From: Pseudoalteromonas rubra | GTDB taxonomy: Bacteria; Pseudomonadota; Gammaproteobacteria; Enterobacterales; Alteromonadaceae | Direction: 5' to 3' | Assembly (NCBI RefSeq): GCF_005886805.2 | Contig: NZ_CP045429.1 | Coordinates: forward strand, 590,501-654,500 | Length of the DNA stretch: 64,000 nt | Shown: in pieces, positions 57,964 through 62,284 of the stretch | Numbering within the stretch: position 1 is the stretch's first letter | Layout of the letters: the number at the start of each line of letters is the position of its first letter | Program-made: the position numbers and the translations under genes | The notes under the pieces: model-generated | Database searches by the model: none | What the model was told of the DNA's origin: nothing | What the model saw: the letters and a program-made list of their open reading frames with translations, nothing else

Positions 57964-60249
57964 ATGGGTAAAAAGAACAAAATTCTATCCTGGTTAGGAT
58001 TTGGAAAATCAGATAAAAAGCAGCAAGAAGCTGAACGAGAAGCCGCTCGCTTGGCCGAAGAGCAGGCTCAGCGAGAAGAAGCCGAGCGATTAGCTAAAGA
58101 GCAGGCTCAGCGTGAAGAAGCCGAGCGATTAGCTAAAGAGCAGGCAGAGCGTGAAGAAGTCGAGCGTTTAGCTAAAGAGCAGGCGGAACGTGAAGAAGCT
58201 GAGCGTTTAGCTAAAGAGCAGGCAGAACGTGAAGAAGCCGAGCGTCTTGCTAAAGAGCAGGCAGAACGTGAAGAAGCCGAGCGTCTTGCTAAAGAGCAGG
58301 CAGAGCGAGACGAAACTGCGCGTTTAGCTAAAGAGCAGGCAGAGCGTGCAGAAGCTGAGCGTTTAGCTAAAGAGCAAGCAGAACGTGAAGAAGCCGAGCG
58401 TTTAGTTAAAGAGCAGGCAGAGCGTGCAGAAGCTGAGCGTTTAGCTAAAGAGCAGGCAGAACGTGAAGAAGCCGAGCGTTTAGCTAAAGAACAGGCAGAG
58501 CGTGAAGAAGCTGAGCGTCTTGCTAAAGAGCAGGCAGAGCGAGAAGAAGCTGCGCGTTTAGCTAAAGAGCAAGCAGAGAATGAAGAAGCTGCGCGTTTAG
58601 CCAAAGAACAGACCGAGCGTGCAGAAACTGAGCGTTTAGCTAAAGAACAAGCAGAGAATGAAGAAGCTGCGCGTTTAGCCAAAGAACAGGCCGAGCGTGC
58701 AGAAGCTGAGCGTCTTGCCAAAGAACAGGCTGAGCGTGCAGAAGCTGAGCGTCTTGCCAAAGAACAGGCTGAGCGTGCAGAAGCTGAGCGTCTTGCTAAA
58801 GAGCGGGCAGAGCGTGAAGAAGCTGAGCGTTTAGCCAAAGAGCAGGCAGAACGTGAAGAAGCTGAGCGTTTAGCCAAAGAACAGGCAGAACGTGAAGAAG
58901 CTGAGCGTTTAGCCAAAGAAAAGGCAGAGCGTGAAGAAGCTGAGCGTTTAGCCAAAGAAAAGGCAGAGCGTGAAGAAGCTGAGCGTTTAGCCAAAGAACA
59001 GGCAGAACGTGAAGAAGCTGAGCGTTTAGCCAAAGAACAGGCCGAACGTGAAGAAGCTGAGCGTTTAGCCAAAGAACAGGCCGAACGTGAAGAAGCTGCG
59101 CGTTTAGCCAAAGAAAAGGCAGAACGTGAAGAAGCTGAGCGTTTAGCCAAAGAACAGGCAGAACGTGAAGAGGCTGAGCGTTTAGCTAAAGAGCAAGCAG
59201 AGCGTGAAGAGGCTGAGCGTTTAGCTAAAGAGCAAGCAGAGCGTGAAGAGGCTGAGCGTTTAGCTAAAGAGCAAGCAGAACGTGAAGAAGCTGAGCGTCA
59301 GGCTCAGGAACAAGAAAAACCGAAGAAGAAAGGTTTTTTTGCTCGTCTGAAGCAGGGCTTGCTGAAGACTAAGAGCAACATAGGTTCCGGCTTTGCCAAT
59401 ATTTTCCGTGGTAAAAAGATTGACGATGAGCTATTCGAAGATCTTGAAACCCAGCTATTAACAGCTGACATTGGTGTCGAGACAACCATGAAGCTGATAG
59501 ATAACCTGACTGATGCAGCGGACCGCAAACAGCTCAAAGACGGTGAAGCGCTGTATGACCTGATGAAGCAGGAAATGGCAGATATCCTGAAGGATGCAGA
59601 AAAGCCGCTTGAGATCCCGACCAATAAAAAACCATTTGTCATTTTGATGGTGGGTGTGAATGGGGTTGGTAAGACTACGACAATCGGTAAAATGGCGAAG
59701 CAGTTCCAGGCTCAGGGCAAGTCTGTGATGCTGGCAGCAGGTGATACCTTCCGTGCTGCGGCGGTGGAGCAGCTGCAAGTGTGGGGTGAGCGTAACGATA
59801 TACCGGTCATTGCCCAGCATACCGGTGCAGACAGTGCATCAGTTGTATTTGATGCCTTTCAGGCAGCGCAGGCACGAGACGTTGATGTCTTGATAGCAGA
59901 TACGGCAGGTCGACTGCAGAATAAAGATAACCTGATGCAGGAGCTTGAAAAAATAGCGCGCGTTATGAAAAAGCTGGATCCGGATGCACCACATGAAGTG
60001 ATGCTTACCATAGACGCTGGTACGGGCCAAAATGCGATTAGTCAGGTGAAACTATTTGATCAGGCTGTGGGTCTGACTGGCATCGCCTTGACTAAGCTGG
60101 ATGGCACGGCAAAGGGTGGGGTGATCTTTGCGGTTGCAGATCAATTTAAGGTACCTATCCGTTATATTGGGGTTGGTGAAAGTATTGACGATCTGAGAAC
60201 CTTTAAGAGCGATGACTTTATCGAAGCACTGTTCAGTCAGGATAATTAA
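57964..60249 (+). CDS. ftsY: Signal recognition particle receptor FtsY with expanded repeat domain
   Basis: Docks SRP-ribosome complexes at the membrane. The last about 305 residues form the NG domain: [16 protein letters not shown], the GTPase P-loop [53 protein letters not shown] and [13 protein letters not shown] are intact, so the enzyme should be active. The first about 36 residues include a short basic amphipathic segment that could bind membrane. Residues 37-452 consist of about 32 copies of a 13-residue unit (consensus [13 protein letters not shown]), making the protein 761 aa against 497 in Escherichia coli. The repeat probably replaces the acidic A domain. Followed by ftsE and ftsX. 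Confidence 0.96.
58072..59319 (+). repeat. About 32 tandem 39-bp repeats within ftsY
   Basis: Imperfect 39-bp units encode the 13-residue consensus [13 protein letters not shown]; variants include RAEAERL, NEEAARL, RDETARL and KEKAE. Third-position differences between units (gaagcc/gaagct, ttagct/cttgct/ttagcc, gagcag/gaacag) show sub-blocks, the later ones being more uniform, as expected from repeated local duplication. Confidence 0.95.
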
Positions 60250-60329: not shown

Positions 60330-61022
60330 ATGATCACGTTTGAGCAAGTCAGTAAAACCTACCCCGGTGGACATCGGGCGCTGGAAAAGATCAGTTTTGA
60401 GCTTACGAAAGGTGAGCTGGCGTTTCTGACTGGTCACAGTGGCGCGGGTAAGAGTACCCTGCTGAAGTTGATCAGCCTGATGGAACGCCCCTCAGCCGGG
60501 CGTGTCGCCATCAATGGTGTCGATCTGAATCAAATTAAAAATAGCCAGGTGCCGTATATTCGTCGCGACATTGGCATTATTTTTCAAAATCACCGCCTGC
60601 TGGAGCGCTATAACGTTTTTGACAATGTAGCACTGCCATTGGTTATTGAGGGTACCCATCATAAACATATGACCAAGCGAGTACATGCGGCACTCGACAA
60701 GGTCGGTTTGTTAGACAAAGTAAAGTGTCAGCCGAGTACTTTGTCTGGCGGTGAACAGCAGCGCGTGGGGATCGCCCGCGCAATTGTCAATTCTCCCCCT
60801 TTATTACTGGCAGATGAGCCAACCGGTAACCTGGATCCGGAATTGTCGATGGAAATACTCAAATTGTTTGAGGACTTTAACCGTCATGGCACCTCAGTAC
60901 TGATTGCCACACACGATCTTGGTTTAATTGCACGGATGAAATACCGCAGTCTGACACTGGACCATGGCCGTTTAATTCAGGATCCGCTGCTGGGCACTTC
61001 GCTGCCGGGAGGCGCGCTATGA
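60330..61022 (+). CDS. ftsE: Cell division ATPase FtsE
   Basis: ATPase of the FtsEX complex that controls periplasmic amidase activation at the septum. Walker [10 protein letters not shown] at about residues 36-44, [15 protein letters not shown] as signature motif, Walker [14 protein letters not shown] and H-loop [10 protein letters not shown] are present. Length 230 aa is normal. Its stop overlaps the ftsX start by four bases (ATGA), so the two are translationally coupled. Confidence 0.97.
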
Positions 61023-62005
61023 GTCTATTGTTTAAAGGTCGCGGTACGCAAAACGACAAACAAAGCAAATCGGTGATCCTGAAGTGTTACTTCTTCATTA
61101 TTACCATACTGCGTCAGGGCGTACACAGCTTAGGTGAAATGTGGCGCACCCCATTAGCGTCGATGATGACCATTTTGGTGTTGGGCCTGAGTCTTACGTT
61201 ACCCACCACACTCTATGTGGTGGTTAAGAATGTGCAGAAAGTCAGTAGCGGTTTTCAGGAAGCTGCTGAGATTTCTTTGTTTGTCAAAGACAGCGTCAGT
61301 GAGCAGGCAACACAGACTTTGGTAAAGCGACTGGCACTTTACCCTGAAATTGACACTGTCAGCTTTATTGGCAAGGATAAAGCGCTGGAAGAGTTCAAAT
61401 CCATTTCCGGGTTTGGTCAGGCGTTGGATTATCTCGAAGAAAACCCATTGCCCAGCGTTGTTCTGGTGACTCCGACAGTTCGTCATCGTAGCGCACAGGC
61501 TGCTAACGCTCTGCTAAATAAACTCGAGCAGGAAAGGGAAATTGAGTTTGGCAAACTAGATATTGAATGGCTTGAACGCCTGAATGCCTTGCTCAGCTTG
61601 CTTAAAGAAAGTGTGATCACCATCGGTTTACTGCTGCTTAGTGCAGTAGTTCTTATTATTGGTAACACCATTCGCCTGTCTATTATGGATAAGAAAGAAG
61701 AGATCCAGGTACTTAAGCTTGTTGGTGCGACCAACACATTTATTCATACGCCGTTTTTATGGACTGGGATCTGGTATGGGATTATTGGCGGCTTGATCGC
61801 CTTTATTTGCGTCATGTTGATGCTGTGGTGGCTGGAGTCAGCCGTTGCCCTGGTGGTGGGTGTGTATCAAAGTAACTTTGTACTACAGGGGTTATCTGGC
61901 TCAGAGCTGCTGTGCCTGCTATTGCTGGCCGTGGCATTGGGCTTTATCGGGTCTTTTCTATCGGTAAGAAAGTACATTAAAGACATCGAGCCTGATAAAG
62001 TGTAG
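61019..62005 (+). CDS. ftsX: Cell division permease-like protein FtsX
   Basis: Membrane subunit of FtsEX. A cytoplasmic N-terminus is followed by helix 1 near residues 45-67, a periplasmic domain of about 100 residues (EISLFVKDSVSEQ...), then three helices with NTIRLSIMDKKEEIQVLKLVGATNTFIHTPFLW in the MacB/FtsX-type core. Length 328 aa is normal. Followed by a long inverted repeat with CIRCE half-sites. Confidence 0.96.
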   Translation: MSLLFKGRGTQNDKQSKSVILKCYFFIITILRQGVHSLGEMWRTPLASMMTILVLGLSLTLPTTLYVVVKNVQKVSSGFQEAAEISLFVKDSVSEQATQTLVKRLALYPEIDTVSFIGKDKALEEFKSISGFGQALDYLEENPLPSVVLVTPTVRHRSAQAANALLNKLEQEREIEFGKLDIEWLERLNALLSLLKESVITIGLLLLSAVVLIIGNTIRLSIMDKKEEIQVLKLVGATNTFIHTPFLWTGIWYGIIGGLIAFICVMLMLWWLESAVALVVGVYQSNFVLQGLSGSELLCLLLLAVALGFIGSFLSVRKYIKDIEPDKV

Positions 62006-62025: not shown

Positions 62026-62105
62026 GCTAAGAGAGTGCTAACTGACGAATACTTTAGCACTCTCTTAGCGCTGATTAGCACTCTAAACCTGCCAAATTAG
62101 CACTG
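62026..62105 (+). repeat. Periodic CIRCE half-site array and 16-bp hairpin
   Basis: GCTAAGAGAGTGCTAA (62026-62041) and TTAGCACTCTCTTAGC (62054-62069) form a perfect 16-bp stem with a 12-nt loop. The stem contains GAGTGCTAA at 62033 and TTAGCACTC at 62054. Further copies follow: TTAGCACTC at 62075 and TTAGCACTG at 62097. Starts are spaced 21, 21 and 22 bases, about two helical turns. No T-run follows the hairpin. Confidence 0.7.
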
Positions 62106-62223: not shown

Positions 62224-62253
62224 TTGATCTTTTAGGGGAAAAAGTAGTAGATT
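62224..62253 (+). promoter_or_regulatory. Likely sigma70 promoter of rpoH
   Basis: TTGATC (62224-62229), 18 bases, TAGATT (62248-62253). The start of transcription would fall near 62260, inside the CIRCE operator. Confidence 0.55.
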
Positions 62254-62257
62254 GCAT

Positions 62258-62284
62258 TTAGCACTCTAAGGTAAAGAGTGCTAA
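62258..62284 (+). promoter_or_regulatory. Perfect CIRCE operator (HrcA site) upstream of rpoH
   Basis: TTAGCACTC, nine bases, GAGTGCTAA: an exact match to the CIRCE consensus, extended by one more T-A pair (TTTAGCACTC/GAGTGCTAAA). It lies 33 bp upstream of the rpoH ATG and over the predicted transcription start, an ideal position for repression by HrcA. No hrcA gene is in the window. Confidence 0.92.

Follow-up and report, generated by a model that had tools for sequence, protein, structure and literature searches.

Does the HrcA repressor stand above the heat-shock sigma factor, sigma32, in Pseudoalteromonas rubra? Repressor-type control by HrcA and sigma32-type control of the heat-shock response are usually described as parallel, and the question is raised by a copy of the HrcA operator, CIRCE, that lies directly before rpoH in the stretch of DNA analyzed herein (the window: 64,000 nt of NZ_CP045429.1, assembly GCF_005886805.2, positions 590,501 to 654,500). 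The elements concerned are as follows.

61019..62005, + strand: ftsX (TIGR00439), the 5' neighbor of rpoH, outside the proposed circuit
62258..62284, + strand: perfect CIRCE operator, found by pattern match, reading TTAGCACTCTAAGGTAAAGAGTGCTAA
62318..63181, + strand: rpoH, encoding sigma32 (TIGR02392 equivalog, 420.5 bits against a cut-off of 323.1)

The perfect repeat reported in the preliminary description of this DNA was confirmed, with 18 of 18 arm bases matching the consensus TTAGCACTC-N9-GAGTGCTAA and a gap of 33 bp between its end and the rpoH start. Within the window, it is the sole match at three or fewer mismatches (chance expectation, 0.03), and a search of the whole genome (5.94 Mb, two contigs), which the preliminary description had proposed, returned no other site at two or fewer. 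At exactly three mismatches there are 11 sites, of which nine are copies of one sequence and the two nonrepeated ones lie inside ORFs. The nine-copy palindrome (around position 1501 of loci L002 to L004) lies approximately 160 to 165 bp 5' of 16S rRNA genes in the three of nine copies checked. Upstream of CIRCE and rpoH are ftsE and ftsX; in addition, ftsY (57964 to 60249) encodes a greatly extended series of repeats near the N terminus, in which a 39-bp unit occurs approximately 32 times (58058 to 59298, 90% matching).

An HrcA homologue and its co-occurrence with the operator

The genome encodes an HrcA homologue, the presence of which had been left as a check. Specifically, the PF01628 domain was found in a protein (locus L005) at 45.9 bits in the genome search and 44.8 bits in the protein, over a cut-off of 22.2, and the gene lies beside grpE in the order nadK (divergent)/hrcA-grpE. 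Because its TIGR00331 score falls under the equivalog cut-off (116.7 bits against 197.2), we name it a homologue and not an equivalog, and routine annotation may miss it. The HrcA DNA-binding domain, PF03444, is likewise below its gathering score (14.7 against 21), and the C-terminal GPxRMxY motif has been lost across the genus. This far-reaching sequence divergence is a counterpoint to reading the repeat as an HrcA operator. The divergence is uneven, however: among columns that are at least 85% conserved across 44 HrcA sequences from elsewhere in the order (29 of 30 order loci gave a usable frame), the genus proteins keep 22 of 33 in the DNA-binding (winged-helix) half against 12 of 30 in the remainder, and the sensor half has, as judged from these alignments, diverged. 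The predicted structure of the P. rubra protein (pLDDT, 83.8; pTM, 0.68) has as its best Foldseek match the HrcA of Thermotoga maritima (1stz_A; E 1.7e-17, prob 1.00), although the whole chains superimpose with a TM score of only 0.50 and an rmsd of 13.2. A profile built by aligning 14 HrcA sequences from the genus with 17 from outside it matched 1STZ at an E value of 7.8e-42.

The same divergence, with scores below the NCBIfam and Pfam DNA-binding domain cut-offs, is what would favor a regulator other than HrcA as the protein that binds this CIRCE-like sequence. We consider that improbable: the better-kept half is the winged helix, the first structural match is an HrcA, hrcA exceeds the PF01628 cut-off in all 99 genomes of the genus, and CIRCE and hrcA share their pattern of presence and absence across the family. 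Among 118 family genomes, CIRCE at two or fewer mismatches was found in 23, against one for a reversed control pattern, and in 20 of these it precedes rpoH, at a distance of 32 to 37 bp in 17 and of 45, 77, and 107 bp in the others; the three remaining genomes contain 2-mismatch sites only, with no rpoH match in the loci fetched. hrcA exceeded the PF01628 cut-off in 19 of the 118, and all 19 have CIRCE at rpoH, as does just one of the 99 hrcA-less genomes. That one (G110) also yields no nadK match, so that its assembly probably lacks the hrcA region; the hrcA-less set includes a genome (G039) with a subthreshold PF01628 score (20.6 bits) and no CIRCE. A single genus (g50) is split, with one member having both hrcA and CIRCE and two having neither. 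The association gives a Fisher p value of 5e-21 per genome and of 3e-10 per genus (9 of 52), values that serve as guides since the sampled genomes are related. Joint presence and absence is what is predicted for an HrcA operator, and it lends support, at the level of sequence, to the hierarchy of HrcA over sigma32 that the preliminary description had proposed. In the 22 of 99 hrcA-less genomes that were inspected before rpoH, the best CIRCE match had 5 to 9 mismatches. The nadK loci of nine hrcA-less relatives contained no hrcA match, with grpE present in six of them, and the hrcA-carrying genomes of the family showed no CIRCE at two or fewer mismatches except at rpoH.

CIRCE at two or fewer mismatches is found in 97 of the 99 genus genomes; the other two have no rpoH match at E 1e-60 and are therefore uninformative. 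In all 32 of the loci tested by tblastn, from among these 97 genomes, the site lies 32 to 34 bp before rpoH, which answers the question of whether the repeat is conserved in relatives: it occupies the same place. The closest named rpoH among the best 80 of 592 candidates, that of P. luteoviolacea (89% identical), is likewise preceded, at 33 bp, by a perfect CIRCE. A second site at two or fewer mismatches occurs in 8 of 99 genus genomes, and the six among the matches listed all have two mismatches; since the reversed control pattern occurs in 5 of 99, chance is their likely source.

Anatomy of the operator and promoter

The genus has a longer form of CIRCE, TTAGCACTCT-N7-AGAGTGCTAA, with one more base per arm. 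Both the inner T and the inner A are present in all 28 unique sites of the genus, in 13 of 16 from the rest of the family, in 12 of 23 from outgroups in the order, and in 13 of 64 elsewhere (genus against elsewhere, p 5e-14, with relatedness ignored). The arms are perfect in 27 of the 28 unique genus sites and the spacer varies.

These properties bear on whether HrcA regulation has already been lost in the genus, with hrcA and CIRCE left as decaying relics. Decay would fit the divergence of the protein and the disappearance of the groESL operator at two or fewer mismatches, although outgroup families have one. It would also fit one genome (G146, locus L082), in which the weakest hrcA match (22.5 bits, a 232-aa frame) accompanies a 1-mismatch CIRCE and gene and operator are possibly a case of decay. 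For the genus as a whole, we regard this explanation as very improbable, given that perfect arms around variable spacers need selection, that the extension is present in every unique genus site (28 of 28, against 13 of 64 elsewhere), and that the hrcA matches are without an internal stop in 99 of 99 genomes.

Ahead of the operator, a block conserved at an equal distance from CIRCE across the 32 genus loci (CTTGAT or CTTGCA, approximately 18 bases, then TAGATT, TAAATT, or similar) points to two promoter elements.

62224..62229, + strand: inferred -35 element of the rpoH promoter, TTGATC
62248..62253, + strand: inferred -10 element of the rpoH promoter, TAGATT

The resulting TTGATC-N18-TAGATT is sigma70-like and predicts a transcription start at approximately 62258 to 62262, in the first bases of CIRCE. 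By our own count, 8 of its 12 positions agree with the consensus, and a generic promoter scan with a threshold of 9 made no call on it. The preliminary description had set the repeat on the rpoH transcription start; the exact repeat stands, while the start site there is a prediction from this block, by which CIRCE would overlie the start point of a sigma70-like promoter that is conserved in the genus.

Before rpoH in one member of the Lysobacteraceae (L252), we observed a symmetric CIRCE variant, TTAGCAGTC-N9-GACTGCTAA, with weaker forms in three further loci (L235, Luteimonas; L238, Xanthomonas; L249), which suggests a shifted HrcA specificity in these lineages. That the palindrome instead acts as RNA, through a stem in the leader at the 5' end of the rpoH mRNA that serves in stability or as a thermometer, is hardly credible and was rejected on arm variation and folding: the first 27 nt of the predicted transcript do fold into a stem, but the 28 unique genus sites contain no compensatory pair and their sole arm change breaks one, the leader fold is ordinary (z -1.6), no Rfam family reaches its gathering score near the site, the presence of CIRCE tracks hrcA, the same sequence precedes groES in other genomes, and the symmetric change in the L252 lineage is equally predicted by a DNA palindrome. 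Perfect arms, a variable spacer, and an uncompensated change are as expected for a DNA site, unlike an RNA stem.

A predicted feedback circuit

The second half of the circuit that we propose lies before hrcA, where P. rubra has a sigma32-like box, CTTGAAA-N13-CCTTAT, and some relatives have CTTGAAA-N12-CCCCAA. At three or fewer mismatches, such a box precedes 25 of the 33 hrcA genes from the genus (compared with 11 of 165 shuffles), with four mismatches in the other 8; it precedes 6 of 15 genes in the rest of the family (5 of 75 shuffles) and 20 of 29 from outgroups in the order (10 of 145 shuffles), with the limit that this box, like the promoter, is a pattern match among related sequences, for which shuffle tests overstate independence. 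The P. rubra box (L005, 2402 to 2365) is so near the hrcA ATG that the mRNA leader would be almost nil. Autoregulation by HrcA was considered and rejected, as the best CIRCE-like site in 9 kb around hrcA-grpE has six mismatches.

Overall, we consider it very probable that the repeat is a working operator of the HrcA homologue of this genome and that HrcA represses rpoH in a serial feedback circuit. By occupying CIRCE, an HrcA dimer would cover the start of the sigma70-type rpoH promoter and keep rpoH transcription low. Protein damage would inactivate HrcA, either because GroEL is diverted or through the action of heat on HrcA itself, as in known systems, and rpoH would be derepressed. sigma32 would then switch on the chaperone genes, including hrcA-grpE via the sigma32-like box, and fresh HrcA would shut rpoH down again. 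With CIRCE over the rpoH promoter start and a sigma32-like box at hrcA, such a feedback loop is likely. The parts of this scheme that can be read in the genomes are a predicted operator in a fixed place, an hrcA gene that co-occurs with it, the lack of any other operator at two or fewer mismatches, the promoter-like block, and the sigma32-like box; from them, we infer HrcA binding, repression, a signal, and feedback.

With regard to the signal, HrcA activity is GroE dependent in Bacillus, and the HrcA of Campylobacter jejuni is reportedly an intrinsic protein thermosensor. Taken together with the diverged C-terminal half found here, the latter makes direct sensing possible. A point against simple repression may come from Xylella, also a gammaproteobacterium, for which a rise of approximately 4-fold in hrcA and 2-fold in rpoH upon nitrogen starvation is reported (PMC3224663); this joint rise counts against simple HrcA repression of rpoH if the Xylella rpoH carries CIRCE.

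Half-sites upstream of the operator

The region between ftsX and rpoH contains four further CIRCE half-sites that were absent from the preliminary description.

62033..62041, - strand: half-site 1 (GAGTGCTAA), part of a 16-bp stem, 62026-62041 / 62054-62069
62054..62062, + strand: half-site 2 (TTAGCACTC), 21 bp from half-site 1
62075..62083, + strand: half-site 3 (TTAGCACTC), 21 bp from half-site 2
62097..62105, + strand: half-site 4 (TTAGCACTC, 1 mismatch), 22 bp from half-site 3

Their spacing of 21, 21, and 22 bp corresponds to two DNA turns. Among 10 genus loci read for the array, besides the 32 tested by tblastn for rpoH, those of four near relatives have a partly turned-over version of it, in which half-site 1 is exact in two (L375 and L376) and has one mismatch in two (L377 and L378); of the other six loci, five had none and one (L382) had a different, everted pair. 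One or two extra half-sites, at other positions, occur in 5 of the other 31 tblastn-tested genus loci. Half-sites 1 and 2 also make the perfect 16-bp stem at 62026 to 62069 (z -4.6), and a generic scan of it found no terminator-like site and no T-run. Its arms, read by eye, co-vary in L378, which makes a structural or terminator role possible. Separately, tandem CIRCE pairs were observed at rpoH in ten loci, 30 to 33 bp (approximately three DNA turns) apart.

Distribution beyond the family

CIRCE at rpoH is not peculiar to P. rubra. Among the 80 named rpoH loci analyzed (the best 80 of 592 candidates, mostly from Beta- and Gammaproteobacteria by title), the best CIRCE match before the gene is bimodally distributed, with 34 loci at 0 to 2 mismatches (20 of them at 0), one at 3, one at 5, and 44 at 6 to 9, which is the level of shuffled sequence; the last group includes the sampled Enterobacterales, Vibrio, Pseudomonas, Aeromonas, and Halomonas. 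In the class sample, CIRCE at one or fewer mismatches was found in 199 of 274 genomes. Among the matches listed, 70 sites in 35 genomes were classified as lying at rpoH (30), groES (30), hrcA (8), or elsewhere (2), with groES and rpoH sites together in 25 of the 35; this classification left out the listed sites of three genomes and one site from each of two more. groES and groEL were recognized by tblastn in the class sample and by short sequence motifs in the order outgroups.

For the latter, 16 of the 39 hrcA-positive genomes outside the family were examined, chosen for carrying hrcA, and CIRCE was found at rpoH in all 16 and also at groES in 11. In two families (f7 and f14), all 12 genomes examined have rpoH sites and 11 have groES sites too, and in the four genomes of another (f20) rpoH is the only site at 0 or 1 mismatch. 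Two loci from one f20 genus (L186 and L187) have 2-mismatch CIRCE-like sites approximately 250 to 260 bp before an ORF that we take to be sppA. The set of HrcA targets appears to shrink from groESL and rpoH to rpoH alone, followed by loss of HrcA in many relatives, a direction that is read from this distribution.

The presence of CIRCE at rpoH thus holds, and its portrayal in the preliminary description as an unusual placement does not, for it is common in Beta- and Gammaproteobacteria outside the sampled Enterobacterales, Vibrio, and Pseudomonas. It follows that the oddity here is rpoH as the apparently sole operator of HrcA, and with it what appear to be a diverged sensor half and an operator that is longer by one base per arm.

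Discussion

One reading that would join these observations, which we put forward tentatively and find somewhat doubtful as a whole, is that the HrcA of this genus is a dedicated, one-operator repressor of rpoH. Its remade sensor half would no longer read GroE in the classical way, perhaps responding to temperature or another signal; its operator would have gained one base per arm, with one clade adding a helically phased half-site array; and HrcA over sigma32 would be ancestral in Beta- and Gammaproteobacteria and lost in the lineage of Escherichia coli. If this were true, the textbook picture of heat-shock control would rest on a lineage that lost the ancestral arrangement. The wide distribution of CIRCE at rpoH does suggest that E. 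coli is the derived case, and Pseudoalteromonas provides a natural setting in which to test the restriction of a repressor to a single target and the joint change of operator and protein.

In E. coli, rpoH is controlled by mRNA structure and several promoters and, to our knowledge, there is no HrcA. P. rubra shares with it the same sigma factor and the position of rpoH after ftsE-ftsX. The difference lies in HrcA and its operator, the sampled Enterobacterales loci among the best 80 of 592 lying at the background level noted above. In Bacillus subtilis, HrcA and CIRCE act on the dnaK and groE operons, with the operator at the transcription start, and we know of no sigma32 in that species. The sequence and spacing of the operator, its placement at the (here predicted) transcription start, and an HrcA homologue are shared with P. 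rubra; the B. subtilis targets, however, are chaperone operons, whereas in P. rubra the target would be the sigma factor itself. The two heat-shock circuits look serial here, with HrcA above sigma32.

Alphaproteobacteria such as Agrobacterium also have HrcA and RpoH in one cell, but there, according to a review, which cites a paper titled 'Differential and independent roles...', both control groE and so meet on that operon, whereas the P. rubra circuits look serial. Our literature search found no report that rpoH is under HrcA control in Pseudoalteromonas, nor in Beta- or Gammaproteobacteria, although earlier predictions are possible (RegPrecise; Permina and Gelfand 2003, on heat-shock regulons of these two classes). 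The sole precedent found in that search is the prediction for Geobacter sulfurreducens, of the Delta class, of a perfect-armed CIRCE at position -51 relative to the rpoH start (Rodionov 2004, PMC545781). The likeness to P. rubra extends to the presence of hrcA. The HrcA of G. sulfurreducens is also assigned sites at groESL and hrcA-grpE-dnaKJ (PMC545781), whereas in P. rubra, at two or fewer mismatches, it has rpoH only.
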